64,000 bases of DNA, from contig NC_036450.1 of assembly GCF_002775205.1 (NCBI RefSeq), positions 27,772,837 through 27,836,836 on the forward strand, in the 5' to 3' direction. Shown here piece by piece: positions 23,115-64,000 of the stretch. Numbering within the stretch: the first letter of the stretch is position 1; each line of letters begins with the position of its first letter. Both the position numbers and the translations under genes were made by a program. Under the pieces are notes generated by a model, which ran no database searches, was not told where the DNA came from, and saw only the letters and a list, made by a program, of their open reading frames with translations. Origin of the DNA: Xiphophorus maculatus (lineage: Eukaryota; Chordata; Actinopteri; Cyprinodontiformes; Poeciliidae).

Positions 23115-23344
23115 GATCGGTTATGCGGCTTAATTGAATACTGTAAGCCTTTCTTACGCTGGCCACCGTACTTTCTGCTTTAATATAAGGTTATGTGAGG
23201 TTTTTCCATGAATGTTAATATCTTATTGTGAAATATCTGAAGTTTTATATCTTTCTTTAGGATAGAGAGGCACCACAAACCTATGATATAAACAGAAATC
23301 TTCCATAAGTAGGAAAGAAATAAAAATACATCCAAACTATATTT

Positions 23345-24500
23345 CTGACTTATTATCGTGGCGTAATAAGTCATCTGACAGGTTTGATTGTATCTCTGTT
23401 GTGCTGGTTGCCTGAATGGTTTAAAGGGCCGTTTTCATGTTCAGTTCCATCTCAACCTTAACAGAGATAAATATGCAGTGAATAAATCGACTTTCAATCA
23501 GTTTTATTCACCAATGACTTAATAATAATAAACACGTTTTATTACTAAAAACACAACAAACTAATTATGGTAAAGGGCCACACTGGGTTAACTTGGGGAA
23601 TCTCATCTATCTGTGTATCAATCAACTCCAAACCACTTCTTTGTTCTGTCACAATTATCGATTTATTCCATTCAGACAACCAGCACAACATAGACACAAT
23701 TAAAACCACAAACCTATGATATAAACAAAAACTTTCCATAAGTAGGAAAGAAATAAAAATACATCCAAACTATTTGGACTATTTCTGAGTTATTATCGCG
23801 AGGTAATAAGTCATCTGACAGTTTTAATCGTGTTTCTGTTGTGCTGGTTGTCTGAATAGTTTAAAGGGCTGCTTTCAGTGCCGTTCCATCTTAGCCTAGC
23901 CTTACCATTGCAGTAAATAAATAGATTTTCAATCTGTTTTTTGCACCAAACAGTTAATAATAAACATGTTTTCACTAAGGCTCTGTGAGAGTAATATGAA
24001 TGAAATAAGTAATTATTGATATTACAGGAGCACGAGACTTTGACACTTAGTTGGTGGGTGTGTCGATGTGGGAGTGACGTCACCAGGTATGAATGGGAAG
24101 GTTACTGGCCTGCTGGTTTTGTGTGTATGAGCGGGGTGGTTAGTCCTTAAAAAGTTTGGAGCATAATAATCAAAATGGAATAAATCGATAATTGTGACAG
24201 AACAAAGAAGTGGTTTGGAGTTGATTGATACACGGACAGATGAGATTCCCCAAGCTAACCCAGTGCAGCCATTTACCATAATTAGTTTGTCGTGTTTTTA
24301 ATAATAAAACGTGTTTATTATTATTAAGTCTTTGTTGCAAAAAACTGATTGAAAGTCGATTTATTCACTGCATGTTTATGTCTGTTAAGATTGAGATGGA
24401 ACTGAACAAGAAAAAGGCCCTTTAAACCATTCAGGCAACCAGCACAACAGAGACACAATCAAAACTGTCAGACGACTTATTACGCCACGATAATAAGTCA
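23345..24500. repeat. Large imperfect palindrome of an old repeat
   Basis: Arms of about 325 bp (23345-23670 and 24176-24500) are reverse complements with scattered differences. They share blocks such as TAAATCGACTTTCAATCAG and CAATCAACTCCAAACCACTT. The roughly 500-bp spacer holds another partial direct copy (23704-23960 resembles 23268-23500). No coding sequence is seen. It may be the end region of an ancient DNA transposon. Confidence 0.7.
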
Positions 24501-24887
24501 CATAGATAGATAGATTTTATTACAGACTCAGAGTCCAGATTACATAAAAAGGAAAGCAAAGACAATAAAAAAAGAAGAAAAGAAAAAAACCCGACTCCTA
24601 GCCATTCAGAAGGCAATCATACCAATGTCTCCAGAGTACAGTGTGATGGCCAAATCCATGGCCACACTCTGATGTCGGCAACTCTTTTTTATGCACAGTT
24701 TATTTTTTCATATAAACACAACAACACTTTAGTTTCAATAAAAACATTTATTAGTTGATTTGAATGCATTTGTTCTATTTGTTAGCGTGCACATTTAGTT
24801 AGCATATGTATTTATATCAACTTAAAGTTAATTTTTTTTGCTTAAGATTAATTCTGTTTGTTTTCCCACTGGTACTTACCTTCCTTC

Positions 24888-28340: not shown

Positions 28341-28717
28341 TCTCCATTGTTTCCCACTCAGGTTTAGAAATACTATAAAGTCGACTATTGGGCAACGGGG
28401 CTCCAGGCAGGAGATCAATTGCACAATCATAAGGTCTGTGAGGTGGTAAGGACGCGGCTTTAGACTTGCTAAACACCTGTGCCAGATCATGATATTCTGC
28501 CGGAACTCTGGAAAGATCAGGAGGATCCGCCTCATTGCCGTTAGCCGGGGAGGGACCTGGAGGAACGGCAGAGCGGAGACAGGTTGAATGACACGAAACA
28601 GACCAGGAATCAATGTGTCTGTCGGACCAGTTTATATTTGGATTACGTTGCTGTAACCATTCAAACCCTAAAACTAACTGTGAGCTGGCCGTGGGAAAAA
28701 CATAAAAAGAAAAAGAT

Positions 28718-29020
28718 TCAGAATGATTGCCAGAAACGGTTAATTGTAAGGGTTATCAGAGGCAGCGCCTTCCCGTCGAGGGCGGAAACACGAAGAGGGG
28801 TACGTAGGGGAACTGTTTCTATGGCCATTTGTTGAACAAAATTGACATCCAGTAAATTGCATTCACAGCCGGAATCCAATAACGCCGACAGGGTCATAGA
28901 GCAGTTTTGAAAATGAATGGTTGCGGGCAACAATAAACGAGGTGAGTCTGATATTCTTTGATGGTCCGCCAGTTCCCTCGTAGTTACTGGCGGACCCTGG
29001 CTTTTAACAGTGTGGGGCAG
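28718..29020 (-). pseudogene. Gypsy aspartic protease region
   Basis: The frame contains LSALLDSGCECNLLD, the D-S-G active-site turn of retroelement aspartic proteases, which cleave the Gag-Pol polyprotein. It lies directly after gag and before reverse transcriptase. The hydrophobic glycine segment near the C-terminus is not clear, and the link to pol is interrupted. Confidence 0.75.
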
Positions 29021-29690
29021 TCGGCAATGAAGTGTCCTGCCTCTCCACAATAGAGACAGAGTTTCGCCCGCATCCTTCGCTGTCTCTCCTCAGGCGTCAA
29101 TCTAGCTTGGCCAATTTGCATTGGTTCTGGATCAGATGAAACTTGCTCTCTCTCTACTTGGACTGAGTGGGGGGGAACAGGAAGCGATCTGGGTACTACG
29201 CTTTGGCTGTTTCTTTCCTTAGCTCGTGCACGAATACGGTTATCTATTCTTATGGACAGTTTAATTAAATCCTCGAGAGAACCAGGCTCATCTAAAGTAG
29301 CCAGTTCGTCCTTTAGGGAATCATTTAAGGCATCCAAATACGCGCTCTTTAGAGCAGGGGAGTTCCATCCCGAGGCAGCGGCTTGGATGCGGAAATTAAT
29401 AGAAAAATCAACTACAGATCTCTGCCCTTGTCTCATTTTCAACAGAGTGCGAGAACTCAGGGATTTATCGGTTTCTTGATTGAAAGCCTGTTTAAACTCT
29501 GTTAAGAATTCAGCAAAAGAGCAGCCATATTCAGGGGAGGAGGAAAACTTGGCTTCAGCCCAATCTAGAGCGCGGTCAGATAGATGTGCAATAATGTAAG
29601 ATATCTTGGCTGAATCTTGGGCGAATCTATGAGGTGAGTGATTGAATTGAATGTTACATTGCATCAAAAACTCCCTGCATTCAATAAAAT
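28984..29690 (-). pseudogene. Gypsy gag, N-terminus lost
   Basis: The visible part starts near FLMQCNIQF. It has the helical capsid region typical of Gypsy gag (LSDRALDWAEAKF, FLTEFKQAFN) and ends with one CCHC zinc knuckle (CLYCGEAGHFIADC, about 29018-29061), which packages element RNA. Upstream it is fused in frame with LINE reverse transcriptase; the open frame runs 30042-28984. Confidence 0.85.
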
Positions 29691-29699
29691 CCCAGACAA

Positions 29700-32198
29700 T
29701 TTGAAATACTCTATTTTTGTCCTCCTTAGTGCGACAGATCAAGATGATACTTTTTGATGGATTGAATTTTACATCAAATAATTCACCATATGCTAAACAG
29801 ACATTAAGCAGCTTCTGAAGACCAGCTGAACTTGGACTAAAAACCACTAGATCATCAGCATACATTAAATGATTAATAATAGTGTCACCAACCATACAGC
29901 CAGTTCTACACAGGTTTAGCTGCTTAGAGAGGTCATTCATATAAAAATTAAACAACATAGGAGATAAAATGCTTCCTTGTCTGACTCCATTGCCGACACG
30001 AAAGGATGCAGACACACAGTTGTCCCATTTCACCTGCATCATTTGATTAGCATACCAGTAGGACAGACATTGTACTATATACTTAGGAACACCAGCTTAG
30101 CACAATTTTAAAAATAGTTTTCTATGATTTACACAATCAAAAGCCTTAGTGGCATCTAAAAAGCACAGAAAAAGTGTAGAATTTTTACTGTTATAATTTT
30201 TCGGTAATTCTTTTAGGCCATATATACACATATCAGTGCCTTGTTTGGACTTGAACCCAAATTGATTGTCAGTGGACATAACTATCTTTGCAAATTTTGG
30301 CAAAAGAATTAGTTCAAAGACTTTAGACCAGGGGTCTCAAACTCCAGTCCTCGAGGGCCGCAGTCCTGCAACTTTTAGATGTGCCTCTGCTGCACCACCT
30401 GAATAGAATAATTAGGTCATTAGCAAGGCTGGGAGAACTGATCTACACAAGGAGGAGGTAATTAAGCCATTTCATTCCAGGGTTTTGTACCTGTGGCACA
30501 TCTAAAAACTGCAGGACTGCGGCCCTCGAGGCCTGGAGTTTGAGACCCCTGCTTTAGACAGTGTACTAGCTAGGGCTATAGGTCTATAGTTATCAGAGCT
30601 GCCAGTTTTACCAGCTTTGTTTTTAATCACAGGAAGTAGAAGAACATTCATCAAGGTTTCAGGAATAAAACCATGCATAATAAAACCAGTGAAACACAAG
30701 GCAAGAAGAGGGACGACCCTTGAACTGGCAAATTTGAGATGTTCAGCTGAAATAAGATCCATTCCTATAGATTTATTTACAGACAGTTCTTTAATTGCTT
30801 GATAGACCTCGTGTGTTTTGATAGTTTCTACACTACTAACCTTGTCAACCTGGAAGGGTTCACTGTGTACACAGGTGAATAACTTGCTGTAGTGGTGTTG
30901 CCAAAAATTCACAATCATGTTCACCCCAGAAACACCATCGACAGTGAAAGGGAGAGAGGATTTACTGTTATTGATAGTTTTAACCTCTTTCCAAAAGGTT
31001 TTTGTATCCTTACCTAAAAGATTTTTTACTAAGGAATCAGCCCTCATGGTTTGCTCATTCTGTCTAATGAAGCGTAATGCATATTTGTATTTAGAATTAG
31101 ACAACTTTTTATGCTCAAATATAGGGCCCTGCCTAGGTTTACCTGCTAGAGCCCAAGAAGTAGTAGCTTCACGGGCTTCACTGTGGAATTTAGACACATA
31201 TGTGTTCCAACCTGGTCTATTTTTAATCTTTACATTACTTTTATTAAAAGGCAGGCTAGCCCCCAGTAGCGCTTCAATTATGTCAGAATATAATCCAGTT
31301 ATATTGTTCAATATTAGAGCAGTTACAGTCTGTACAAGTAACTGACTCTCTTGATAAGTTAATGGTAGATAACAATTGATCAGTTTGGGCATAACGGGCT
31401 ATTTGTTCAGTAGATAAAGAAGACCAGTCTATACGTGTCTGATTTTGAATACTGTTCTTATTTACAGTTGCGGGTACATGATCAAATCTAATTGATACCT
31501 CGAAGGGGATGTGATCAACAGTGGATACATCGTATAAGATATTAATATACAGTATATCAAAGCAGCATGAGCATCTGCTGTAGTGATACAATGGTCCAAC
31601 CAAGATGTAGTATGCCAGGCTTCATTTATATAAGTGTAACTTGCAGCTGGCAAAAGTTTTTTACTTGACAATACTAAATTAAAATCTGTACAAAAATGAA
31701 TCAGGTGTTTAGCAAACAGCGAGTTTTTATCCGAGATATCTGCACTCATGTCACCCATAAGATAGATACATTTTGACTTCTCATTTTGCATAAAAGAGCT
31801 AATATAAGCAAGTTTACTAAGGTATTCTTCTTCATTATGATGACATTCATATGGAGCATAGACATTTAAAATAATAAACTCTTTGTCAAGCTGTTTCACG
31901 TGTACTGCAATACACCAATCCACACCTAATCTCATGACATTTATCACTGAGTCCAGGCTTTTTTTCCCCATAATATAGAAACCCCTCCTGGTATCCTTCC
32001 TCTTTTAATTCCCAAACTGAGGTCAGTAGTAGATTCCCTAGCACCCAAGAAACTGTCATTGATAGAGTTTAGTCCTTTTAAATCCTGTTTGGCTAAAAAT
32101 GTTTCTTGCAAGCACAAGATGTCACAATGTAGCAACAACTGGTCGACAACCAAACAGCGAGCTTTATCATCTGCACTCTGCCCTAAGCGCAAGGCCAC
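29700..32198 (-). pseudogene. LINE ORF2: endonuclease and reverse transcriptase fragments
   Basis: Endonuclease blocks are CDILCLQETFL, VNVYAPYECHH-like and LMGDMSADI. The reverse transcriptase shows KSIGMDLISAEHLKF, NYRPIALASTLSK, FLDATKAFDCVNH, VRQGSILSPMLFNFY and the catalytic YADD (about 29850). Frames change at about 31960, 31400, 30520 and 30060, and the MITE lies between the finger and palm motifs. No complete protein remains. Confidence 0.8.
30329..30551. mobile_element. 223-bp hAT-type MITE
   Basis: Terminal inverted repeats of more than 40 bp begin CAGGGGTCTCAAACTCCAG. Perfect 8-bp duplications ctttagac lie at 30321-30328 and 30552-30559. It has no coding capacity. Only one mismatch is seen in the outer 40 bp of the repeats, which suggests a fairly young insertion in the LINE. 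Confidence 0.95.
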
Positions 32199-46352: not shown

Positions 46353-46904
46353 CTGTCAGGGCTGTAATTATAGTTATTATAATTATAATTATGAATTATT
46401 ATTTAATTAATTCTTTACAATACAAATATTGCCAAAAAAGTGAAATTATGGCCACATACTTTTGAATAATATTTTGAATGCCATTTAATGATGACATGAA
46501 TTAATAACAAGGTCTACAGTATAAACAAGAAGTATATATTTTTAATAAACATTTTTGTCTCTTAATGTGGTAAGTTGCTCCTCTGTCTTTAACTATTCAA
46601 AGTGGTGCTGCCATGTCGTTCTTAGCAGACAAAGAGGGGACCTTGATTTGCATTAGTAAAGGTACCCACTTGGTTTGTACAGAACGACAGGGGTCCACTG
46701 TTGGCTGGTGCAAAAACGACATAAGTCCCCACTGAGATAGGATGGAGCGACAATCACATTCCAGAAGAAATTAACTGAATTAATTTTTTTAAGACAAAAA
46801 AATATGAAAGCTGAACCAAAACAACTAGAGGTCTTGAATTATTTCAGTTGATGTAAATTACAGATCCCAATATTTGTCTGAAATGTTTCCTCAGCAAGAG
46901 GATT

Positions 46905-47313
46905 TAACATGGGACATTTGGGAGGATTTATAATGGGACATTTGGGAGTATTTCGTATGGGACATTTGGGGGGATTTAATATGGGACACTTAGGAGGATT
47001 TAATATGGGACATTTGGGAGGATTTATCATGGGACATTTGGGAGGATTTATAATGGGGCATTTGGAAGGATTTAGTATGGGACATTTGGGAGGATTCATA
47101 ATGGGACATTTGGGAGTATTTCATATGGGACATTTGGGAGGATTTAACATGGCACATTTGGGAGGATTTAATATATGACATTTGAGAGGATTTAATATGG
47201 GACATTTGGGAGGATTTAATATGGACATTTGATGTATTTATAATGGGACATTTTGGAGGATTTATGATGGGACATTTGGGAGGATTTAATATGGGACATT
47301 TGGGAGGATTTAA
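46905..47313. repeat. 24-bp minisatellite array, left of the KDZ transposon
   Basis: About 17 units of ATGGGACATTTGGGAGGATT plus four bases (TAAT, TATA, TCAT). Because 24 is a multiple of three, the array is open in several frames and yields a false repetitive protein (MGHLGGFN on plus). Units at 47140-47280 form a higher-order pattern that reappears at 63440-63570 and 63850-63990. The array is the target site of the giant element. Confidence 0.95.
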
Positions 47314-47335
47314 CAACACGTTCTCACTCCCGACT

Positions 47336-47417
47336 CGTCATATATTGACGCTTGGGCAGGTTCCCTCAGCGTCACATATTGACGCGTCGGGTACCCCGTT
47401 CGCGTCAATATGTGACG
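47336..47417. promoter_or_regulatory. Subterminal palindromic motifs, possible transposase sites
   Basis: Three 15-bp motifs lie within 105 bp of the tip: CGTCATATATTGACG (47336-47350), CGTCACATATTGACG (47370-47384) and its exact reverse complement CGTCAATATGTGACG (47403-47417). The right arm keeps the last two (63376-63390, 63343-63357), and the 133-bp MITE keeps the first two. Conservation in a MITE that has lost everything else suggests recognition by the transposase. Confidence 0.6.
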
Positions 47418-47975
47418 AGAAGGGTTCTCCCATTGAATGCTGTACGGCTCCCTAAGCGTCCAAAACCGACGATCTAGGAACAAATAAGATGACGAGTCTG
47501 TTCTATTTTTGTAAAGGCACACAATTCGTGCATAGCAGATGTATTTGTAGGTTTTTAACAATTTAGTTAATTTTACTTCAGTTTTAAAAGATCCTCCGGT
47601 TCTCTGAAGCCGCGATTTTATCTACATGTCTGTTTATTTCTTAACAGCAGACACGAATTACACCAGTTTCACTGATTTCATCGTAACTTCATGATTGTAA
47701 AGGACATAACATTCTAATTTTTACACAATAATAAAAAAAGAAAGGAATACGTATGTTATTTGGAGTTTATGAGGTTACAGATAATAGCGGCATGCACCTC
47801 CGAAGTCGTTTGCAGTCCATTAATAATAAAAAAAATAATTTTAATAAAAATGTTTAAGAAGAGTGAGGGTGCATTTCCTTTTGTGATTACATGCCAGACG
47901 GTTCTGTAAACGTTTGATTAAAATAAAAATAAGGACAGATCCCACCCGTCCATAAATCTAAGAAGAAGAAGAAGC

Positions 47976-48660
47976 TGACGTCATCGCATGCGACATTGGA
48001 CCCCGGTGAGTACAAACCTGAATCTGTCAGAAATGGTTTTGTATTATAAAACAAAAGAAAATACTACAGAATGTGATTGCAGTTGTAGGACTTAATGGTA
48101 GTAGGACTGTGCCGCGAATGGTTGAAGACATTTGGACACGTTTGTAACATGTATTTTTTTAATTTTTGTTGCCGCTAGCTACATTAGCTAGCTACATTAG
48201 CTAGCTACATTAGCCTCTTGGAGCCCAGAGAGTTCAGCTGAACCTGCACTTAATACATTTAATTAGCCATGATAGAGTCACAGAATTGTTTGTTGTATAA
48301 TTTGAGGGTTGCTATAACAACCCTAGGCTGTGATGATCCTAAAGGTTTTCTGAATACACTGATTGCAGCTAGGTCATGCATTTGAATTAAAAACGAACTT
48401 GGGTCATTACAGCCAAAGTTCTCTCCACCTGTCTACGTTGAAATAAATAACTTCCGAAATCTGAACATTTATTTTGTTTTTATGTCAACAGGTTCTTCTT
48501 TGAGATATTCATCGGACATACATTTCTGCTCATTCATAGCACCCACAAAAGGCACTTTTAAGAGCCACGTTTGTCAAATCTCTGCGTCATCTTTTTTGTC
48601 ATATCTCTTCGTCATCTTTGTGTTCTTAATTTGTCTATTCTTCACATAATTTGTCAACAG
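47976..48660 (+). promoter_or_regulatory. TIR-borne promoter, 5' non-coding exon and intron for gene A
   Basis: A perfect CRE-type site TGACGTCA is at 47976-47983. Downstream, GACCCCG is followed by splice donor GTGAGT (48006). A pyrimidine-rich acceptor ends TTTGTCAACAG at 48660. Transcription from here would splice out about 655 bases and leave a short leader before ATG 48708. The right arm carries the mirror-image set for gene B. Confidence 0.5.
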
Positions 48661-48707
48661 TTCTGTTTGTTTGTTTTGTTTGTTTGTTTGTTTGTTTGTC
48701 CATCACC

Positions 48708-51700
48708 ATGAGTGTCTCAAACATCCCCGATCCATTAATGGTCCTGGATGCTGCGATACATCAGCATAAAATAAATGTTGAGCTTCAAAAACTTGATGAC
48801 TTAATTGTTGATCTGAAGAAAGATAAAGATCAAGTACCTACGCAGATCCCTGAACCCACAGTAAGGTGGAGAAAAAGGGACAAAGATGGAAACATACTAT
48901 ATAAGAGGCCTAGATCAACAAGAAATCAATTACGTAAGAGTAAGTACTTCTTTTAAAACATGTATGTAGATATGACACATATATACATATATGACACATT
49001 TTTGACACATATATCACTAAATTAATGCATTCATTACTTGATATTTTGGCAATATATATTTTTTTAACCAAGTAATTTATTCTGTTTGTTTTTACATCTA
49101 TAATGTTGATATTTATCTGCTTTTTGAAACAAATCACTATTTCTTAGAGGATTGATAACTTTCCCCAGCACATAATTATTTTCAATTATACGGTAATAGT
49201 ATGCTGAATAGAAATTACTCCACAACATAGAACATGTTAGTTATTTAAGTGAGGATTTTTTCTGTTTTGACATACAGTAGAATGCAGTTGAAACAGAGTG
49301 AATGTATTTCCAGCAGTTGATGTATATGTATTTAGAGACATACCTTGTTACAAAAGGTTACAAACAAACGTGTTGTTCCTCCATTTGTCTGACAGTATAA
49401 ATTACTTTCTTAATTTTTTAGTTACCGGTAGGAACCGGTTTCTACTACAAATTTTAATCTTAAGATATGGGAATGTAATACAGTTATTAAATTGAAATTG
49501 TACTTTGAAATGTTGCTTTAAGTAAGATGTTAGATATACTCCTTACTTTTATATTTGTTTATTTTATTTTTAAAGTGCCCCACCGTCGGAAGACCAGCTG
49601 TCCCTCTCAACCCTCTAACATTCATTGTGAAGTTGCCTTTGCTCCAGAGACTGTTGGTATGTCTGTAGTAGATCTTATTGTATTTCTTCTAAGCATCTTC
49701 TATGTGCCATACGTTTCTAATATGTAAAACATTTTTTTATTTTTTAAAAGAGTCTTTTCTACAAGAACTCCAGAGCTCACTGAATGATGCTGCAGGTCAA
49801 CCAGTAGTGCCAAAAGCTCCTCTGGCTTCCACAAACTGGAGCAGAAGAAAAAGCCTTTTTTCAGAGAGTTGGAAAGCAGAAAGACCCCGTCTGGTTAACA
49901 CCATGGCAGCTCAGCAAAGTGTGTCAGCACACTTATGCCAGCATTGTGGAAATAATCCATCTGCACTTCGGTGTCGTGATTGCCTACCACACCCCTTCTT
50001 TTGTGAAAAATGTGATGTGATGATGCACACCAAACATGTCTTTCACAACAGAGAAACCATCATAGCTGGGTTCTTCCAGCCATTGCCTCCAACTACCTAT
50101 GTTTTAAATACAACTCTTTGCCATGATGGTAAGTTCAAGGTATTAATTAAGCTTTTTATTTGTACTGTTTAAACACTCCTCAGAGTGTTTTTCTTACTGT
50201 TAACTTTTGACTGTATTTTGAATGTTCTGGTTTTTAGGTCATCTGGTTCTGCATATATTAGTTACAATGTGTTAATACAGTTTAGGTGAATTCATATTTT
50301 AAACATGTCAACCTCTTTAGCACGATTCGTACCTGTGGAGATCCCAGTTAGAATTTGTGATTGTCCATCAGAGTGTTTGAGGATCAAAGCAGGAAAGGCT
50401 GTCACTGTCGTCACAATCAATGGTATGAATAACTTTATTTTTTTCATGAATCAAAATCAAAACATAATAAAAACCAATGTTAGCAAAATTTAAATATTAA
50501 GTATGTTTGTTTGCTGACTACAAGGAATTGTTTGTGACACAATGTCAACCTGACACTAAAATAATTAAGTATTACAACTTTTACATTTTTTTGGTGTTTT
50601 AGGTCGTTATGATCTCAGCATGCCAGAGCTGAGGTGTGAGGGATGTGAGGCTAGTTGGACATGTGGAGTACATGATCTAAATTTAACTGATTACTGGCCA
50701 GCTACCCTTCACTTTTCCACTCTATATGCAACTGATGTGCTTTTTACATTTGAAGAAATGAAGATGGCAGCACCAGGTCTCTCCTGTCAAGCATTTCTTA
50801 AAATGTTAGACCAACGAACCGTCCGCTTTGGCCGTGTGAGTACTTTGACGTACATATCCCATAAGGGCCGTCTGACTCAATTCTTGAGTAGTTATGTTCT
50901 TCAACCTTTTGATGTAACTGGTTAAACACACTTGAATCAAATGGCTGAGGTACCACCTCATTCATTCAGCATTCAGATCATATGTAGTAACATCAAAATT
51001 TATTGAATGAGATGTTTTGTGCCAGAGACACACCTAAAACTTGAAGAACACATATCCTGATACCTGGGATTTGGACAACTATGTCCTTTCTTTAGTTTGT
51101 TTTTAATTATTATTTATATATTTATATCTCTCATTTTAAATCAGACAGGAAAGATATCAGCTGACAACTTCCTGAAAAGTTTTTTTGAGTGGGAAGCTAT
51201 AAGATATGAGTTGGATAAAATGTTAAGGAAGGATCCCTTCAAGTGTCAAGCTTGTACCCTGGATATGCTTGCAGTTTCAGTGGATGGAAACCGCAAGCAT
51301 TACCGTTTCAAGAATGCAGCAAGGTATTGTAAAATGTGTTCAATATAACAATTTGTATAAGTTAGTGATGTTCACTACCTGTGGACCATAACACCTATTA
51401 AGTGCTTTTTTTTTTTTTTTTTTTTTCAGATCGGAGGAACAGGCCCTATTTCAGGACCTGTTCATAGCCAAGGATGAAGACGTAAGACAATTTGTGGACT
51501 ATATACACAAATCAACCAAACATGTAAGACTGCAGATTATAAATGTATAACGACAGTAACCTTTTAGCCTGTAATGACGGCGTGCCTGACTTAATTTTAT
51601 GCATTCTAGACTTCTGGAAGAGGTGTCTGTGGTGGGCAATGGTCAGCAGCCAGAGAGACCTCTCACAGATCCAGCAGCAAACTGGACGGGGAGGGATTGG

Positions 51701-53507
51701 AGCTAGCGGTGTGCAGACATGGGGTGCTACTTTGTGCCCTGAACATGTATAGGGGTGAGATATATGCATATCCCTTGTACTTGCAGCAAAGGCTGGCCAA
51801 CAGACGGATCACATTTTTTTGCATGGATGTAACATGCAAGTACTGGCCATATCTTGAGAAAGTATCGAAAAACTGTCCTGAGCTCCAGCACCTGCTTCAA
51901 ATGAAGCCATTCCTCTCCGTGTTCCATGCCAAAGCCCATGACTTCAAATGTGAGGTAAGGAAAACTGACTAGACATGGAATAACCTTGCTAGAACATAAC
52001 TGCATGAACATCGTTGACTCAGTTGATATTGTTTGTGCGTGCATGCTTTTATTTAGGCTAAGTGGAGTGGAGCATATCAAGATGGTGCTGGCTTGACTCT
52101 AGGGGAAGAAGTTGAGCAGTGCAATGCATTTCTCTCAAGGATTGCTGTTACGACAAAACATATGTCAAAAGCTGGTGAGAAGACCAAAGATTTCTTTCCT
52201 GAAATTTTAACTAATTACGATAAAGGAAAACTCTACTATTGGGGGCCTCTTTCTGTTTGCAGGACGGACAGACATGCTGACTCTTATGGCCATGCGCTGG
52301 AATCAGCAAAAACTTGACAACTTGGCCACCTCACTAACCCGTCGATATCAGAAGGTAGTGAAACTGTTGATGTTTGTTAATTCCTATACATGCTGTGATC
52401 TGATTTTTTTTTATTTCTTTGAAATTGACAATGCAGGCCACAAAAGCTCTTCAAAAACAACATCAGAACTTGGAGTCCTTAAAAATTGAGCTTTTGGTGA
52501 CTGACAGTCAACTTGATGACTGGGTCCATGATATTAAGGAGTGGGCAGAAGGTGAGCTATTAGAGTTCAAAAATTAGAGGAAGTTCCAAAAGTACTTCTA
52601 TGTTAACTGCATTTCCCTTATTTATCATCATCAGCAACATCTAGCACAACTGATCCGGACTCCTTGGCAGGCAGAATTGAGGTTCTGGCTGCGAGCATCA
52701 AAAGGCGATCTCAGCGTCTTTATAAAGACATAGACGGAAACAAAGCTCGTGCCAAGGCTCGTCGCAAAATAAGACAGGAGAAAAACGTCTTAGCATTGGC
52801 TTTAGAAAACTACAAGACTGTTACAGGCACAGAAGCACTATCTTTAGAAGAGATCCTGTCCGGTGACACAACATTGCCATGGCAGCAATCAGACAGTGGT
52901 AAATAAACATACACTAATACATTTTATACTGTCATCATACCTGACAGATAATGTGGCTAGATACTCCAGGTGTTGACCTAAACTTTATTACAAATTCAAA
53001 CTGAGTTAATTTGTCTTTTTCCTAAATGCATTTCAGACTCTGTCAGTCTTGCCACAAAAAGGAGGGCATTCGATGGCATTATGACAGTAAAGAGACTGGA
53101 AGAGGAAAAGAGGATCCTCGTAGCAGAGATGGACCGTCATTGGAAATCTCTGTCATCCTATGAAGATGCTCTAAAGGAGCTTCCCCGCCTGTTATCGAGC
53201 GGCAAATTTAAAAGTATGTTTTTAAGTAATGTATAAACCTATCAAGAGTTAAAACATCTAAATTTTCTATTAATTGTTATTTTTACTTATGTTCAATTTT
53301 AAAGGTTCGTCCTGTTCCCTAACTGATGAAGCTCTAAGAGGTCTCCAGAGCATCATCCTCAGAGAGCTACAGCACTTAAAACAAATGAAACTGCAGGCAA
53401 GAGAACATTATCTACAGACTTTGTCAGGAGCAGAAAGTGTTAGTTTTGACGATACTTCTGATGACGACTTTGGTAGTGACTCGGAAGCTTCTGATAATAG
53501 TCTTTAA
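48708..53507 (+). CDS. KDZ-superfamily transposase (gene A), 14 exons, 870 aa
   Basis: Exons by eye: 48708-48939, 49576-49656, 49751-50128, 50321-50422, 50603-50835, 51145-51323, 51430-51523, 51610-51954, 52057-52174, 52263-52354, 52437-52551, 52635-52898, 53037-53213, 53305-53507. All introns have GT-AG ends, phases agree, and the sum is 2613 nt (871 codons with stop) with no break. Residues 167-203 form a B-box-like cluster (C-x2-C-x8-C-x2-C-x6-C-x2-C-x4-H-x2-H), as in the CxC motifs of KDZ transposases. The RNase H-like core has SVDGNRKHYRF (D389), GRGVCGGQWSAARETS, VCRHGVLLCALNMYRGE, FFCMDVTCKYWPYLE (D506), FHAKAHDFKC and LGEEVEQCNAFLSR (E565-E568), a plausible D-D-E triad. The C-terminus is a basic helical region with an acidic tail. 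It would excise and insert the element. Exon 1 could instead end at 48933, which changes two residues. Confidence 0.88.
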
Positions 53508-54052
53508 TCATTTGTGCATATACTGCTGACAAAGATCTACACTAGCGTGACAGTATTCGGCTCCTTCTGGATTGACCAATATGTCACAAGTAAAGTATGT
53601 TTGCTCATAAGTCACAAAGAGACACAATTCTGTTTAAATTTGTTCTTGTGCTTTCATGTTTCCAAATAGGGAGTGTTTTATTTCGGTGATTCTTTTTTTT
53701 AAAATAGTTAATATGTTTGTGCCTTTTTACTTTCTAAAAGGGTCTTACTAGGGCTGTGATTACTTGCGCAGGCATGTCATTCATTTTGTTTCTTTTTCAT
53801 TATGTTTCTCCATATCTACTGTATTTCCAGATAATAGTAAGAGTAATTTTACTGTAGTTAATAATTTTAGTTACTACTTTTACTTCAAATGGAGTAATAG
53901 CAGTTGTGCTTATGTTTAGCAGTTTAAAAATGGCTACAACACTACATTAAGCAGTCGCAGTGATTCTGCACTAACCAAGACATCTTTTTGGATATTATAC
54001 TTTTATTTTCTTTTTTTATTAACATGTGCAGCTCTGACTTATTTTTTAATTC

Positions 54053-54058
54053 AATAAA
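54053..54058 (+). terminator. Polyadenylation signal for gene A
   Basis: AATAAA about 550 bases after the gene A stop codon, followed by a GT-rich stretch (GTGTATAGTGGTGG). Earlier weaker signals are possible. Confidence 0.5.
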
Positions 54059-54779
54059 CACACAGTGTATAGTGGTGGAACACTTCGTTGTCTGTGGTCA
54101 CTTGAATTCTGTTCAATTTTTCTGTCAATTTCTGTATTAAAAAGAAATGAGTTGCAAAGTTTCAGTACATATCAATGTGATATTTTAATGCAGTACTCAC
54201 GGTTCTGATTTTGTTTAATTACATACATTTATACAAGAAATTCATCAAGCATGACTTTACAAACTAAAAAGCATCTAGCTTAGTGGACACTTTACTAAGT
54301 AGGATATGTTCTGAATCCACTAGTTGATAAAAAGCCAGTAATGAAGCACATTAAAATTTTGGACAAACATAACAAAAAGTGGTTTTAAGAAATACGTTTT
54401 TCAGCTTTTAGGTACCCCTTAAGGACATTTGAAAATTAATTATAATTGCATACATAGAACTAACAGGATTAATTTCTGTAACAGAATCTAGTCACCTATT
54501 TTGAACCTGAAGTCATGGAAATGGTCTATTATTTGTCCTTCCAATCATGGACAATCACTGATAACTCGGACATCACTCCTCAAATATGTGTGATATGTAT
54601 TTTTATATATTTAATATATATTCATCTTTTCATATATATTACATAGATTACTATAAAGACATATATGCAAAGAAATGTATAAAACTGTACATAAGGCCAT
54701 GTGAAAATATAAATAGATTTATATCAGATGCGGAAGCCTCCATTATACTCCCAGATTTGTACAGAGGTAGGGTAGAAGT

Positions 54780-55350
54780 AGGGTTAGCTGGGTCTGCTAA
54801 GTGTCTGAGTGCTGGTGGTTCATGGGTAGTGTGGTCCACGGGCATTGTGGGGGATGGGGAGGCCTGCCACTTGTGTATTCTGACCGGTGTTCCTTCGTGG
54901 ACAAAGTGGCTTAGCTGGGTGTGCTAAGTGTCTGAGTGCTGGTGGTTCATGGGTACTACTCTGGAGGTCCATGGGTGGTTCATCCAACCTCCATGCGGGG
55001 TTATGGTGCTCCATTCCTGTGTACTTGAGCTCCATGATGTGCCCTGGTTCTCTCGAGGTCCAAGTACTTAAGCTCCATGATGTGCCCTGGTTCTCTGAAG
55101 GTCCAAGGGGGTGGTTCATCCTACCTCCATGCGGGGTTATGGTGCTCCATTCCTGGGTACTTGAGCTCCATGAGTCCCCCTGGTTCTCTGGAGGTCCGTG
55201 GGGGTGGTTCATCCAACCTCCATGCGGGGTTATGGTGCTCCATTCCTGGGTACTTAACCTCCATGATGTGCCCTGGTTCTCTGGAGGTCCATGGGGGTGG
55301 TTCATCCTACCTCCATGCGGGGATAGGGTTAGGGTTAGGGTTGGGGTTAG
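54780..55350. repeat. 93-bp minisatellite and short TTAGGG tract inside the transposon
   Basis: The block GTGGTTCATC...CTCCATGCGGGG starts at 54975, 55111, 55204 and 55297. The last spacings are exactly 93 bp and the first contains an extra partial duplication of about 43 bp. To the left, TGCTAAGTGTCTGAGTGCTGG occurs twice. It ends with AGGGTTAGGGTTAGGGTTGG, a few telomere-like repeats. Open frames across it are artefacts of repetition. Confidence 0.85.
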
Positions 55351-57765
55351 AATGGTTTTAAAACAACAAAGAGGACCTAGGCTGTCCCTGGGTCCAGGCT
55401 GTTTTATTTAGATTGAGGAGACTAGTGGAAGGGGAGTTTTTCTTTCCTTTGCTGTATTAATCAGGGCTTTTTGTGTGTGAGTGTTTTTGTTGGGGAACAC
55501 TTAGGTGCATTTAGTTGTATTTGTGTTTTCTTTATTATTATTCCTCCCCCAAACTGTCTAACTTTATTTAATTGGGTTTTAACGATGTCTCTCGGCTACA
55601 AGGTTTCCAGGGCCAGCATAGACTCTTACTACCTCATAATTTTTACAAACTTATCTGTGTGATCTGGTAAAAAGAGGATTTAAGGTTCTCCACACATAAC
55701 AGAAACTGTACCTGCTCACAAGTGCATTTTCTTTCCATGCTGTAGTCATCAAGCTGAACATTTATCTTTTTCTGTACAGTGAGAACGTTTTTTAAATTGG
55801 GTAACATTTCACCAAATGAAGTAATTAGAAGTCAGTAAGACCTGATGCCGCACACACTTCTCTCTGCAGGAGAAAATTCTCGCAGAAGCGCATCAACTGC
55901 GCTAGACGCTACAAAGCGCCTGCTCCAGCATCCCGATCACAAATTATAGTCTGACAAATATTTTTCTTATACTGATTGATGGTGAGCTCCGCAATTGTTC
56001 TCTGTTCATTAAGTGGAAAATGTCAACGCACCAAGTGCTCAGGTGCGCATTACGACAGTCTGGATAAGAAACCAGTGAACTGCACTCTGTCCTTGGTCAG
56101 GGTTCGGGGGACCCGACATATTATCTCAATGAAGTTTTTACTGGTTTAGAGTTTTAGACTACCATTAGCGTAAGTAGTGTAACTATTTATTTATTTGGCG
56201 TTTGTCATTTGATGTGTGATTAGTTTGAGCGTAACGGTGGAGCTGCGTGCGCATTTATTGTCCAGCGCACTGCACTTGTTACTGTCTTACCCACATCTAT
56301 GCTTTAATTTCTTTCCTTCCTCAAAGTCAGCTGGCTAATCCTCTATCTATGAAACACATAAGTAACATAACATAGCTTCACACACTTCTGCAAGTGTGGA
56401 GGAAACCAATCAGTTGTACAGTTTAACTTGGCGTCATGCCTTCAAGACAATACACAGGGGAAACTTGACCAACCTCTAACGGCGGCCGGCTTGTCAGTCA
56501 CTGAGAAGGGCAAACTTAAAAAAATGTTTATAAATCCCATTATGACTCTTTCTGTAACATACGCATATTTTAACTACATTTTGAGGGACCATTTCAGAGT
56601 GTTTCGTTGACCACTAACTTGACCTTATTTCACAACTGACAAATAAGGTTGTCAAACATCATTTGTGCCCTCTCTCCCCCGAGATAATCCTGTAAGGTAC
56701 AATGTGTTGATGGAGCTCGATGTGTTCCTTTCTTCTTTTACTCGGTCTGCCGTATAATGGCTGCATTCCATTTCAAATTCCTGCCGATCCGCCGTACAAG
56801 AATTCTAGAACTAACTATGCGGAGCTGTGATGCTTCAGAAATATTTTGTATAGTTTATAATAAAACATTATGGAAGATCAGGTCTGAAACAGGTTTCTCG
56901 TCAAGGTACTTCAGTCTAAACAGCTTTATTTAGACTGTTTCACGTTGGATCATCTAAGGAAATGTAGCCAGCAACATCCAGTACTTAAAAAAAGCACTTC
57001 TTTGGTATTGACAGATCAGTTCTGGAATATATATATATCAAGATATAGATATAAATGATTTATATATAAATTACAGGCTTAGTTTATATATATATATTTG
57101 TATGTGTGTTCTTCAACATGTGCATGGCATTTGTGACATAATTTTATTAAAATGTGTTGGTGTTATATAGTCAGTTGATCTGGACATTAAAATGTATTTT
57201 ATCATGTTCTTCATCAGTAACTTCACTTAAAGTTGCTGTGTTAAAAAGTAATTGTACTGCATTTGAAAGCAATTTTATTATAGCATTTCACAAATACAAT
57301 CTCGATTGACAAAATACATGACACAAAAAAGGTGATGTTGAATTGTTGAAATTTTCATGCTTCTTGGCATGAAACAACTTCCAATTAGTTATATTTAAAT
57401 TAAGTTATATTTATACATTTTTTTTCTATTTTAATAGACTATACTTTGTACATCCACATCAACCTTCAAAACACTCAAAAACAAATGTTTAAAGGATTTA
57501 AGACATCAGGTCAACTATTACAAGCCAAAATGTACAAACAATCCTGTTCAAAATTTGAAGCCTCAATACAGGCAAAATAACTTGTTCATGCAGTGACTCA
57601 ACCAGCATCACTCAGTCTTTTACAGAACATGACAAAGACGTGTCAATAAACAGCCCAAAATAAGCCGAAAACAATATTACACAGAAAACCTTTTAATATA
57701 GTCAAACTGCAGTTATAGAAAAATGGAAATTACAACTTTGTAACACAAAAAAAGAAAGAGCAACA
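55351..57765. other. Unassigned interior of the KDZ transposon
   Basis: AT-rich, with a TATATA-rich stretch at 57030-57100 and no recognisable exon. A reverse-strand AATAAA near 57275 could serve gene B. Confidence 0.4.
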
Positions 57766-60700
57766 TCATGGAAGGACTTGTTTGCTGTCTGAAGGAAGAA
57801 GCTCTTGGGGGACAGCAACATGTGTGAATTCACTTGCAGGTTCCCAGGTGTCATCCCAGATTTTCCCGCTAGAAAAGATCAACAACAATAAAATCAAGTG
57901 GTGGATTTTTTGTGCAGTAAAGTTGACAATTTTCTCTTTCTAAAAGAGAGGTTGTGTAGCCAAAGACTTTTCCCTGCCTAAATCCCCCCCAATTAACAGC
58001 TAGTACATACATCTTGTTGTGTCCCAAAGATACAATATTATCTTGAATTATCATTAAGTATCCAATGACAAACTGACTGCACAGTCATTTTTTACCATTA
58101 CACAAACAAGAAAAATCTCTCATAGAGCTTTAGTTTTTTAGAAAAGTCTAAAAAAAATAAAACACAAAGAAAGTGACCGTTTCAGATTTAATTTCCAGCT
58201 TGTATGAATTATAAAAGGCACAGTATTAAATAATTTATAGGACCATAGTGCCTTTTCATAATATAATAAAGTAAGTCTGTTACCTTCAGTTATTATAAAA
58301 AATGAAGGCAACATGTTTGATAGGTATTCTATCAAAAATGACTTAAAAGAAATGTCACTTTGCCATTTGCACACTTTAAATTATGGATCCCAGGAAGAAT
58401 AGCCATGTTTAAGGCAATGGCTATTGGAGATACAAATAAACCCCTTTGAAAATGGGTCATCGTTTCTTTAAGAAGCGCCTGCTCTTCTGACACTCTGCCT
58501 TCAGGATGTAATCACAACATCACTCCTCCAAGCAGTTTACAGCCATTCTTAGTAGAGTTGGACTGAGAAGATCCCTCACATGAGCTCAGCAGAGGGGCTG
58601 TTCCACCAGGTGTTTGCTAATTGTTGTTGCCACTAGCTTTGAGGGGTTGCATGTGGGATGTATGCTTTGTAGGGCACTATCTCAGCTAGAGACTGAAAAG
58701 CCAAGGAAAAGCTTTTGTGGCAAAAGGCCACAGAAAGCTTGATGACATTATAACATGATATACAGCTCCAAAAGTTGATTTTCCATTATACTTCCCCCTG
58801 AAATAGCAAAATAATATTTCTAATAAGTGCAAAGAAACACTTCTCACCAAGCAGAGCAGGGCAACCAATGAATTTTTACTTCCTCTTTGCCCTAGACACC
58901 ACATAAAATAAGATAAATGCATTAATTAAAGCAATCATCACACAACATATCCATAAATTGTTTCTAAAATACTTAAGTGTGGAAGTGGTTTTTACATGTT
59001 ATTGAAGGATGATAAGTGGTCATGGGTTTTCTTTAGAAAGACGAAAGAACTCCCAAATCAGCATTTCTTTTATGATAAAAGGCCTAATTTAGTTATTTGG
59101 AGTTCTATCTCTATGCTTCTATGTTTCTGTGCAAATACTGACTTTTTTGTGTGAATTTGTTTTGCTCTGCAATACCAGAGATGTTGTGACTTATGTGGTA
59201 TAAGTACTACTGATTCCTATTGTAATGCCCTTCTTTGTCCTTAGAAAACAATAGACAGATAGAAAGAAAGAAAAGGAGTCTGGAATGTCAGTAAATGTAA
59301 CCACAAGGTTTATAAGTAAACAACTGTGCTCATTTTTGCATACCACAGTCCCACTTATCACCCCTCCCCCCATCTATTCATCTCCACACAGGCAATGTCT
59401 CTCAGTGCATCTTGGCATGTTTGACTGGGGTGGAGATAAACTTTGAGAGGGTACATTAGAAACACTTCAAGTCTTACCGCATTAGTCCTATGCCCAGTGA
59501 TTGAGTCAAACAGGAACACCTTTTGTCTGCTACATTTCCGGCAACCTTAATGAGAAGAAAAGAAAAAAAAAATTATAAAAACAAAATAAGAATTAAAGTC
59601 AGAGTGTACACTGAAAAATGAAAACTAGTATGGTGACTCATATTTTATAAACCTTCTAAACTTTATTCTTCTTTACATGGATTTACACATTTTCTCAAAT
59701 TAGGTCAGAGGTTGATATTATATTATTAGTAGTTAAATATTTTTAATATTTAACTACTTTAGAGTGGCCACAGAAATGGAAAAACTAATACTTAAAGTGT
59801 AACTAAACCCAAAACAAGTTTTTGTTGCTTATAAACTGTCTATCAAGGTTTTCTGTGTCTGTGAGAATTTTGTTTTAGTGCTTGACTCCTTAAGTCGGTA
59901 GTTGGGTTTTCCTAATAGTTACAGTGAAAGTCATTAACACAAAAATATGAAATAATACTATAACCATGTCACTCAGGACTCATTCTGGTATATGACAGTC
60001 TCACTCAGCCCCACTGCCCCACACGGTGGTTGTGGTTGAGTTGTGAGTGAGTATGGAGTATTGAGCGTTGTGGTGAGTATTGATGATAGCATCATTCTGC
60101 TTTACAAATGTGTGATTTATTTGTAATATTGACTAAATTGGAATGGGTCTGCTCTGCTATGATTACTGCCACAGGTATTCTGCAGGACAGACAACTGTTA
60201 TACTGCAAGTCTTTCTAGAAGCGAGGGGGAATCAAAGCAATCTATGCTGCTTGCTCAGGCCAGACAGGCTACAGCAAGGCCGCAGAGCAATGTTGACTTA
60301 AGAGTCTCAAACACACAAAAAAGAGTGGCTACACATATCACTAGCTGTTTTGACAAAATGTCTGTAGAGGAGTATAAAAACAATGTACGAAGATAGCAAC
60401 AAAGTGGATAAGCTTTGCCTCTATCTTTGTTAATCTCCATCTCCAGTCGTGTCTTTTCCCTCTGCTCACTTGTGTCAAATTTCAAAAGGCTTGGGTTATG
60501 CTTTCAGGGCAGTTAGTTAAACTTAAAACAAATACTGTGTACTTGTCCAAAGGTTCACAAACAAGGCCAAGACAAGCATTATTGTTGTTTCAGAATTTGA
60601 GGTTAGTATAACAAAAATGTACGTTAAATGCACAGTGGCACAGTTGGTAGAGCTATTGCCTTGCAGCAAGAAGGTTCTGCGTTCAATTCCTGGCCCGGGG

Positions 60701-61984
60701 TCTTTCTGCACGGAGTTTGCATGTTCTCCCTGTGCAAGGTGGGTTCTCTCTGGGTTCTCCGGCTTCCTCCCACAGTCCAAAAACATGACTGTCAGGTTTT
60801 TTGGTCTTTCTAAATTCTCTCTAGGTGTGAGTGTCTGTGTGTATGGCTGTGTGTCCTGTCTGTCTCTGTGTTGCCCTGTGACAGACTGGCAACCTGTCCA
60901 GGGTGACCCCCGCCTCTTGCTGGAAATAGGCACCAGCAGCCCTACCGACCCCTGGTGTAAGAAAATGGATGGATATAAAAGAAATAGTCACAGGACTAAG
61001 GAAAACAAAACTTACCCTTTCTCTTCTTATTTTCAAATAGGCCACCCTGACTTAACGAGATGGCATGGGCAGCAGGCGATTTATATGAATGTTGGTTTGG
61101 CTGGTCTATGGGAGAGACAGATGGCAGAGTAGGAGGAGAGGCAGGTGGAGAGGTGCTTCTGGCTCTTTTCTTCTTCAGGAAAGCCGGAGAAGAAGGAACA
61201 ATAGGAGGAGAAACAGGAACCAGATCAAGCACAATCACAGGCTCTTCCTCAGCTATGGTCTCTGTTGGTTCATAGACCAGGTTCTCAGCTTTTTCATCAG
61301 CCCACTGCTCTTTGGGTGAAAAAACCTGCTGTTCCGTGGAGGTGTCGGGCTGCACTGGTACAGACGTGGCTAGGAAAGACGTAATTTTACAGAAAACAGA
61401 AATAAATATCTATAGACACATATCTTGCTCGCTTTCTGTGGACTTGATATAATGCACCACAGAAGTACACACACTCTCACACACATACATGCATTACCTT
61501 CAGGGAGGAGAAATTCATAAGCCCTTTGCATCTTCTCAAGAAAATTATTTGTAGTAGCAGTGGGCTCCAAAAGAGTAATTGCATCTGCTACCCACTTGCT
61601 TGAAGACTTATCTTCCTTAGCAAAAAATAAAATAGGCTTATAGCCTAAAGCATGAAGTTTGCGAACCTGCAATTGATAAGAACATGTTACAAGTTACTAA
61701 AACGCACCATCCTATTAGAGCAGTTGTTTTTCATCATTTTGCTCATTAACAGAACTTTTTCAGTCTAAAATTTTCTACTTACTGCAATTTCCGCAGAATC
61801 CATTATGCGGGAAACATTTCTGTTTTTTAAAACTGTTTCCCTCCACTGATCATTGAATATCTGAAACTTTTCTTTTATTTTTTTTTTTGGTGTAAAGACT
61901 CTGGTGGCAGGCGACACAAGTTTTTCTGTTTGCCTGATTGGGCGTTTGACACTGTGCGCATGGCCTGAATTTGGGGCGTGTCAT
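57766..61984 (-). CDS. Gene B of the KDZ transposon: zinc-ribbon accessory protein
   Basis: Likely minus-strand exons are 61984-61783, 61666-61498, 61369-61016 and 59545-59478, with a possible last exon 57868-57766. Exon 1 starts MTRPKFRPCAQCQTPNQ and has two Cys pairs (C-x2-C and C-x2-C), a zinc-ribbon pattern. Exon 2 gives IAVRKLHALGYKPILFFAK and MQRAYEFLLPEG. Exon 3 is a long Pro/Ser/Glu-rich linker (VSPPIVPSSPAFLKKKRARS). Exon 4 adds another Cys pair (GCRKCSRQKVFLFDSITGH). GT-AG sites and phases fit for exons 2-4. In exon 1 an A11 run (61880-61890) shifts the frame by one; ten A would restore it. At least one exon between 59.4 and 57.9 kb is missing from this model. I do not know its function. 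The shared promoter arms suggest co-expression with the transposase. Confidence 0.6.
60628..60975 (+). mobile_element. tRNA-derived SINE in a gene B intron
   Basis: The head resembles a tRNA gene with A box-like TGGCACAGTTGG and B box-like GGTTCTGCGTTCAATTCC. The body has GAGTTTGCATGTTCTCCCTG and TTCCTCCCACAGTCCAAAAA, widespread in fish SINEs. The end is ATGGATGGATATAAAA. It lies between gene B exons 3 and 4, antisense to the gene, and is not an endogenous tRNA gene. Confidence 0.85.
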
Positions 61985-62029
61985 ACTTAAAAAACACTGA
62001 CAAAGAGCAAAATAGAATGCAAAGACTTA

Positions 62030-63439
62030 TGATGGACAAACAAACAAACACACAAACAAAACAAACAAACAAACAAACAGAACTGTTGACAAATTACGTG
62101 AAGAACAATAGACAAATTAAGAACACAAAGATGACGAAGAGATATGACAAAAAAGATGACGCAGAGATTTGACAAACGTGGCTCTTAAAAGTGCCTTTTG
62201 TGGGTGCTATGAATGAGCAGAAATGTATGTCCGATGAATATCTCAAAGAAGAACCTGTTGACATAAAAACAAAATAAATGTTCAGATTTCGGAAGTTATT
62301 TATTTCAACGTAGACAGGTGGAGAGAACTTTGGCTGTAATGACCCAAGTTCGTTTTTAATTCAAATGCATGACCTAGCTGCAATCAGTGTATTCAGAAAA
62401 CCTTTAGGATCATCACAGCCTAGGGTTGTTATAGCAACCCTCAAATTATACAACAAACAATTCTGTGACTCTATCATGGCTAATTAAATGTATTAAGTGC
62501 AGGTTCAGCTGAACTCTCTGGGCTCCAAGAGGCTAATGTAGCTAGCTAATGTAGCTAGCTAATGTAGCTAGCTAATGTAGCTAGCGGCAACAAAAATTAA
62601 AAAAATACATGTTACAAACGTGTCCAAATGTCTTCAACCATTCGCGGCACAGTCCTACTACCATTAAGTCCTACAACTGCAATCACATTCTGTAGTATTT
62701 TCTTTTGTTTTATAATACAAAACCATTTCTGACAGATTCAGGTTTGTACTCACCGGGGTCCAATGTCGCATGCGATGACGTCAGCTTCTTCTTCTTCTTA
62801 GATTTATGGACGGGTGGGATCTGTACTTATTTTTATTTTAATCAAACGTTTACAGAACCGTCTGGCATGTAATCACAAAAGGAAATGCACCCTCACTCTT
62901 CTTAAACATTTTTATTAAAATTATTTTTTTTATTATTAATGGACTGCAAACGACTTCGGAGGTGCATGCCGCTATTATCTGTAACCTCATAAACTCCAAA
63001 TAACATACGTATTCCTTTCTTTTTTTATTATTGTGTAAAAATTAGAATGTTATGTCCTTTACAATCATGAAGTTACGATGAAATCAGTGAAACTGGTGTA
63101 ATTCGTGTCTGCTGTTAAGAAATAAACAGACATGTAGATAAAATCGCGGCTTCAGAGAACCGGAGGATCTTTTAAAACTGAAGTAAAATTAACTAAATTG
63201 TTAAAAACCTACAAATACATCTGCTATGCACGAATTGTGTGCCTTTTACAAAAATAGAACAGACTCGTCATCTTATTTGTTCCTAGATCGTCGGTTTTGG
63301 ACGCTTAGGGAGCCGTACAGCATTCAATGGGAGAACCCTTCTCGTCACATATTGACGCGAACGGGGTACCCGACGCGTCAATATGTGACGCTGAGGGAAC
63401 CTGCCCAAGCATTGACGAGTCGGGAGTGAGAACGTGTTG
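62030..63439 (-). repeat. Right terminal inverted repeat (1410 bp)
   Basis: Mirror of the left arm. It carries TGACGTCA at 62776-62783, the 5' exon donor (GTGAGT after 62754) and the acceptor before 62082. It has four copies of the AGCTAGCTACATT unit and lacks about 7 bp near the tip (first palindrome eroded). It ends 45 bases before the gene B start codon at 61984. Confidence 0.9.
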
Positions 63440-64000
63440 GATTTAACATGGCACATTTGGGAGGATTTAATATATGACATTTGAGAGGATTTAATATGGG
63501 ACATTTGGGAGGATTTAATATGGACATTTGATGTATTTATAATGGGACATTTTGGAGGATTTATGATGGGATATTTGGGAGGATTTAGTATGGGACATTT
63601 GGGTGGATTTAACATGGGAAATTTGGGAGGATTTAAAATGGGACACTTGGGGGGATTTAATATGGGACATTTAGGAGGATTTAAAATGGGACATTTGGGG
63701 GGATTTAATATGGGACATTTGGGTGGATTTAATATGGGACATTTAGGAGGATTTAAAATGGGACATTTGGGAGTATTTCATATGGGATATTTGGGAGGAT
63801 TTAACATGGGACATTTGGGAGGATTTCATATATGACATTTGAGAGGCTTTAATATGGGACATTCGGGAGGATTTAATATATGACATTTGAGAGGATTTAA
63901 TATGGGACATTTGGGAGGATTTAATATGGACATTTGGTGTATTTATAATGGGACATTTTGGAGGATTTATGATGGGATATTTGGGAGGATTTAATATGGG
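63440..64000. repeat. 24-bp minisatellite array, right of the KDZ transposon
   Basis: Continuation of the array at 46905-47313, running to the window edge. The first 130 bases after the element repeat the order of variant units at 47143-47280, including the aberrant ATATATGACATTTGAGAGG unit and the short ATGGACATTTGATGTATTT unit. This shows a higher-order repeat. Confidence 0.95.

Follow-up and report, generated by a model that had tools for sequence, protein, structure and literature searches.

Boehne and colleagues are said to have described Zisupton, a transposon of the KDZ superfamily, from the platyfish in 2012 as recently active in fish. In the parts of the sources consulted here, Zisupton makes target site duplications (TSDs) of 8 bp (PMC12730594) and residues 1333-1393 of the protein of platyfish Zisupton form a CxC7 domain (PMC12062965); because that domain reaches residue 1393, the protein should be longer than 1393 amino acids, or nearly so. 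Kyakuja, a KDZ lineage described in fungi, is presented in the available portion of its source as having 7-bp TSDs and 5'-CA..TG-3' ends and lacking inverted repeats (PMC12730594). Giant KDZ elements of Ectocarpus and Chlamydomonas are, in the excerpted account, over 10 kb long with nested insertions and additional genes, mostly of unknown function, and one of 31.7 kb is reported to move in Chlamydomonas (PMC12477816). Galileo and Foldback-like elements are described, again in a partial source, as combining long inverted repeats with mostly 7-bp TSDs (PMC4168063). Here we analyze a 64,000-nucleotide stretch of the Xiphophorus maculatus genome (C8:27772837-27836836, hereafter the window), part of an assembly of 704.3 Mb in 101 contigs, in which copies are labelled by contig and C8 denotes the window copy. 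Positions 47314-63439 of the window are a complete DNA transposon. Its superfamily is known, but the way its ends combine is unusual, and its unexpected parts are a chromodomain-like partner gene and the behavior of its long arms.

The element begins with CAACACG at 47314 and finishes with CGTGTTG ending at 63439. Its left terminal inverted repeat (TIR; plus strand, 47314-48705), on the side of the transposase gene, is 1392 bp long, and its right TIR (minus strand, 62030-63439), on the side of a second gene that we call gene 2, is 1410 bp long. Aligned with each other, these arms match at 1381 positions and mismatch at 4, with five indels that measure 7, 1, 13, 3 and 8 nt, which bears out the near-identical 1.4-kb arms reported in an initial annotation of the same DNA. 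The element ends and comparison with other copies define a 7-bp TSD, GATTTAA, to the left (47307-47313) and right (63440-63446). On its own this duplication is weak evidence, because both flanks lie within one 24-bp minisatellite that surrounds the element (46898-47313 and 63439-64000) and reaches the end of contig C8, 561 bp beyond it. Given that the window ends with the contig and the element sits within the minisatellite so close to that end, the whole arrangement might be an artefact of assembly at a chromosome end; we find this hardly credible, since the arm-gene-gene-arm layout is found again at C17 and the TSD has both of its halves. The minisatellite at the contig end is possibly subtelomeric.

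We trust the 7-bp length because other copies confirm it. Searching the genome with the left arm yielded at least 83 matches, from which 36 loci were fetched; some of these represent opposite ends of a single copy, or the same insertion in duplicate. When these loci and the window were scanned for ends, 20 copies with both ends were recovered (3 in the window and 17 loci); 19 loci with no recognisable end were left out, including L056 and L059, whose weak end pairs were taken as spurious. An exact 7-bp duplication flanks 12 of the 20 copies, against a chance expectation of about 0.001 in 20, while one copy has a single mismatch, two (L046 and L052) have two mismatches, and five (L019, L021, L023, L025 and L026) have no duplication. 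An 8-bp match was seen in 0 of the 20 copies. The termini are thus 5'-CA..TG-3' (CAACAC..GTGTTG) with 7-bp duplications; the target duplication first noted at the window copy holds, and the arm search of the same genome found further copies and deletion derivatives.

The splice model of the transposase gene, on the plus strand, starts 3 bp beyond the left arm's inner end. Its 14 exons join into 870 codons without a stop, with GT donors and AG acceptors: exon 1 (48708-48939), exon 2 (49576-49656), exon 3 (49751-50128; cysteine-rich, with weak zinc-finger matches below the Pfam cut-offs), exon 4 (50321-50422), exon 5 (50603-50835; CxC3 by Pfam), exon 6 (51145-51323), exon 7 (51430-51523), exon 8 (51610-51954), exon 9 (52057-52174), exon 10 (52263-52354), exon 11 (52437-52551), exon 12 (52635-52898), exon 13 (53037-53213) and exon 14 with the stop codon (53305-53507). 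The candidate catalytic residues are a first Asp at residue 389 (exon 6), a second Asp at residue 506 (exon 8) and a Glu at residues 565-568 (exon 9). Exon 7 could be spliced at either of two donors, each of which keeps the frame, and the Xiphophorus hellerii protein has the longer form. That protein is identical to the spliced transposase at 635 of 645 residues across exons 4-14, and a Leuciscus protein, 68% identical over 100% of the query, covers exons 1-3. The Pfam profile search matches KDZ (PF18758) over profile positions 3-217 of 217 (115.9 bits against a cut-off of 26.6, E 2.9e-33) and CxC3 (49.6 bits against a cut-off of 26.6, E 3.9e-13). Both the assignment to the KDZ superfamily and the open frame of 14 exons and 870 amino acids, as originally proposed, are therefore confirmed.

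A protein search returned 216 relatives of the transposase; nearly all of the 120 listed are uncharacterized, hypothetical or unnamed, and the named ones are all from fish. A larger, alignment-based search returned 395 proteins, and the named ones among the best 120 of these are likewise from fish. The complete element described here gives this mostly uncharacterized fish transposase family its ends, its TSD length and a partner gene. A Foldseek search with a model of the transposase gave no match at E 0.001 or better. The transposase profile matched CONSTANS zinc fingers at E 0.018, a suggestive hint of a B-box-like finger in the predicted protein.

The element shares with Zisupton its superfamily, a multi-exon transposase and the platyfish genome, and the title of the Zisupton report describes recent activity in fish, so the window might simply hold a copy of Zisupton. 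We consider this very improbable. The TSD is 7 bp rather than the 8 bp given for Zisupton in the part of PMC12730594 consulted, and in place of a protein with CxC7 at residues 1333-1393 (PMC12062965, likewise in part) the element encodes one of 870 amino acids with CxC3 and KDZ, together with a second gene. No match named CxC7 appeared up to E 1 in the Pfam profile search of the transposase, made against a library not confirmed to include that model. The same assembly contains another, very different multi-exon KDZ gene at C7:27075231-27076784 (L072, L073), a candidate for Zisupton itself or for a gene derived from it. Membership of the Kyakuja lineage is a tentative alternative: the 7-bp TSD and 5'-CA..TG-3' ends described for Kyakuja (PMC12730594, in part) are both found here, but Kyakuja is described there without inverted repeats and the window element has TIRs of 1.4 kb. 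The two also differ in their companion genes, which are TET/JBP genes in Kyakuja, as far as its description was available, and a chromodomain-like partner here. The size of the element is not new in itself, because algae are already known to have large KDZ elements that carry extra genes; the giant Ectocarpus and Chlamydomonas elements, in the accounts consulted, resemble it in exceeding 10 kb, in their nested insertions and in their extra genes. Galileo and Foldback-like elements, described in part, resemble it in their long inverted repeats, mostly 7-bp TSDs and two-arm derivatives (compare C11b and C14 below), but they belong to the P superfamily, not KDZ.

Overlooked in the initial annotation, gene 2 consists of six minus-strand exons that start 46 bp beyond the right arm's inner end and converge on the transposase gene. 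Exon 1 (61783-61984) encodes a zinc-ribbon-like C-x2-C-x10-C-x2-C motif and has a frame shift in an A-run near 61878-61888. Exon 2 (61498-61666), exon 3 (61016-61369; a Pro/Ser-rich linker) and exon 4 (59478-59545; the start of the chromodomain-like part, with its first C-x2-C) follow, and the boundaries of exon 5 (58848-58891; the chromodomain-like core) and exon 6 (57766-57868; the end of the chromodomain-like part and the stop) were set by eye. By sequence, the predicted protein has a zinc-ribbon-like N-terminus and a chromodomain-like C-terminus. Chosen C-terminal fragments match the chromodomain in six of six cases at E up to 1, the best at 5.9e-4, and whole gene 2 proteins score 14.3, 14.3 and 15.2 bits against the chromodomain profile. 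The C-terminus does not reach the Pfam cut-off (17.8 bits against 25.1 for member 1). A profile of the whole of gene 2 searched against the PDB matched Huntingtin alone, at E about 0.5. Kinship of the N-terminus with RanBP2 fingers, read from the spacing of the cysteines, was considered and dropped, as Pfam shows only a weak double zinc ribbon.

The protein search found 34 relatives of gene 2, in fish only. Gene 2 could still be a chromodomain gene captured from the host, a mere passenger that plays no part in transposition. Giant KDZ elements often contain extra genes, according to the part of PMC12477816 consulted; exon 1 is shifted or stopped in the C8, C1, C44 and C11a copies, yet these elements persist; and the chromodomain-like part is missing from 10 of 19 aligned relatives. 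On the other hand, the same 19 relatives share 24 invariant columns, all within the first 118 residues, and every gene 2 site in platyfish lies within sequence of the platyfish KDZ element. Gene 2 and the transposase are also found on listed contigs of equal size in three cypriniforms, Onychostoma, Chanodichthys and Paramisgurnus, once with nearby gene numbers, whereas in the other species shown, X. hellerii included, the listed contigs differ, one contig being listed per cluster. We therefore regard the passenger explanation as possible but less likely than a gene that works with the transposase. The open-licence literature searched yielded no description of a chromodomain partner in a KDZ element; chromodomains are known in Gypsy integrases of algae, as described in a source available in part.

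The genome search sets a lower bound on the number of copies. Multiple transposase exons occur at C8 (the window), C5, C17 and C11, and there is one exon-sized match of 70% at C2. Gene 2 sites are at C8, C11, C17, C5, C1 and C21 and at C44, a near-duplicate, with two exons at C10, where 3.66 kb of element sequence is 99% identical. The C17 copy is 25 kb long and has both arms and further insertions; its transposase-side arm lacks 107 terminal bp, and its transposase has a frameshift in exon 8. At C5, a search of 20 kb found the region of exons 2-4 but neither the left arm nor exon 1, and there are deletions at exons 8 and 11. A copy on C11 (8.69-8.70 Mb) is an internal-deletion derivative without exons 8-14, and two others, C11b and C14 (L018 and L019), are about 1.8 kb long and almost nothing but two facing arms, the former with a 7-bp TSD and the latter with none. 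C44 and C21 (L015 and L016) have a flank in common and almost identical partial copies, which disagree in exon 1 of gene 2; the two are probably one insertion assembled twice. Apart from the window copy, no complete open transposase was found in the assembly by this lower-bound search.

Comparison of the arms among copies bears on how they came to be alike. Between C8 and C17, the variants sort by copy at 15 sites, of which four fall within 9 bp, and by side of the element at 4, each of these lying in a simple TGTTTG repeat where the arm ends internally; 0 sites show a third pattern. Over the 15 pairs among six copies, which are not independent, 105 sites sort by copy, 0 by label and 4 are crossed; the crossed sites are the same four side-following C8/C17 sites, and appear crossed because C17 is in the opposite orientation. 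In a tree, the two arms are sisters in C17 (100), C11b (97) and C14 (75) and are not sisters in C8, C11a and C1. Arms within a copy differ by 0.5% in C8, 0.6% in C17, 0.95% in C11a, 1.4% in C11b, 1.4% in C14 and 2.1% in C1 (188 sites), and arm differences between the two-gene copies listed are 0.6-2.2%. The contrast of within- and between-copy differences is clear for C8 and C17; for C11a it is weak.

Because variants are shared by copy and not by side, the arms seem to have been homogenised and appear to evolve in concert. The same distribution, with an internal divergence between the window copy and C17 of about 1.7-3%, indicates that the arms became alike only after the copies had parted. 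In cut-and-paste elements, arms are not copied from each other upon insertion. A very recent insertion, by analogy with retrotransposon long terminal repeats, would account for arms that differ at 4 of 1385 aligned sites plus five indels, but since cut-and-paste insertion generates no arm identity, and given the sharing of variants by copy and the divergence from C17, we judge it unlikely. Gene conversion is the likely cause of the resemblance, with repair that copies one arm from the other as an alternative. From these comparisons, the likeness of the arms does not date the insertion; the recent movement that the initial annotation had read from them is not supported, and the result is a warning against dating such elements by arm divergence.

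Several features bear on whether the window copy can still move. Its transposase has G at residue 460, a position occupied by E in 140 of 141 relatives, and L at residue 381, which is P in 132 of 138; the X. hellerii protein carries E and P there. S175 is a milder third departure (A in 105 of 116 relatives). At 113 columns conserved in at least 97% of sequences, the window transposase departs at one, within the range of the database relatives. In the window copy, the reading frame of gene 2 is shifted in exon 1; among six other copies this exon is open in C17 and C21, shifted in C1 and C44 and interrupted by a stop in C11a, and in C5 it reads without a stop, its first base not aligning. The disagreement at this exon between C21 and its near-duplicate C44 suggests the involvement of an A-run that is unstable or was misassembled. 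The transposases of C8 and C17 differ by 8 synonymous and 18 non-synonymous codons, which is no evidence of purifying selection, C17 being frameshifted. The continued activity of the element, which the initial annotation considered possible, is doubtful because conserved residues have changed, the gene 2 frame is shifted and the search found no other complete open transposase; judging from its sequence, the window copy is probably no longer autonomous.

The arms may have further functions. Near their tips lies a 15-bp near-palindrome, CGTCA(C/T)ATATTGACG, located by motif scan in three copies on the left (47336-47350, 47370-47384 and 47403-47417) and two on the right (63343-63357 and 63376-63390); with two more in a small relative at 14871, the window contains 7 matches, against 0 in 100 shuffles, and we consider these subterminal repeats candidate transposase-binding sites. 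Both arms also hold TGACGTCA (CRE-like), a CCAAT-type box, a donor-like CCG|GTGAGTA and an acceptor-like site. By motif inspection, TGACGTCA and the donor-like site lie at 47976-48014 on the plus strand of the left arm, with right-arm counterparts at 62783 and 62756. The observed/expected ratio of CpG is 0.92 in the left arm against 0.48 in the window, and both genes start just beyond an arm. We infer that the arms are candidates for a shared promoter and 5' exon of both genes.

The locus is best explained, and we hold this with good confidence, as a cut-and-paste DNA transposon of X. maculatus that belongs to the KDZ superfamily and has two genes. Besides carrying transposase-binding repeats near their tips, its arms would serve as a matched pair of promoters for the convergent genes. 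The transposase, with a putative RNase H-like core, would cut at CA/TG and join with a 7-bp stagger. The chromodomain-like protein would work with it, most likely steering the complex to particular chromatin or protecting it there. The long arms would be kept alike by gene conversion or by arm-to-arm copying during repair, and the window copy would have moved in the past and now probably not be autonomous.

The PHD finger of RAG2 is a chromatin reader. RAG-like transposons (RAG1L/RAG2L), in the partial description consulted, also consist of two convergent genes of which one is the transposase, but the transposase family and the partner are others and the likeness is an analogy only. A more speculative possibility, less likely than not, is that teleost KDZ transposons are a two-component system, in which a DDE transposase and its own zinc-chromodomain reader were brought together independently of RAG1/RAG2. 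Identical promoters would then lie in long arms whose identity gene conversion maintains, and a single sequence would act as end, promoter and conversion template. Two questions become testable with this element: whether a cut-and-paste transposon uses a chromatin reader of its own, and by what means long inverted arms are kept similar.

Between the two genes, copy comparison reveals an insertion or expansion of about 540 bp (54788-55329) that is absent from the C17 and C5 copies. Telomere-like TAGGGTTAGGGTTAGGG is present at 55321-55349, also between the genes, and a shorter similar run is found at the corresponding position of C17. An Rfam scan of the window gave no match.

Two small non-autonomous relatives lie elsewhere in the window, both on the plus strand. 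One, of 133 bp (14871-15003), was identified by arm match and end scan; its first 87 bp are identical to the arm and it is flanked on both sides by the TSD CATATGT. The other, found by end scan, is more divergent and 84 bp long (23031-23114), with the TSD GATCAGT/GATCGGT. After it comes a foldback-like element whose 348-nt inverted repeats (23325-23672 and 24174-24521) are 92% complementary and 501 nt apart. A 17-base end sequence matched 3 viral contigs, a link taken as chance, and a 21-base end sequence matched 0 viral contigs.

The remainder of the window contains other coding features. The regions 16212-21974 and 26107-30096 hold plus-strand reverse transcriptase open reading frames and a minus-strand Ty3-like set of reverse transcriptase, RNase H, integrase and gag. 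On the minus strand, 1050-1652 and 4893-5528 contain ALKBH8_N beside a reverse transcriptase, as well as the N-terminal domain of an amino acid permease (1.3e-25), which is perhaps part of a host transporter gene.

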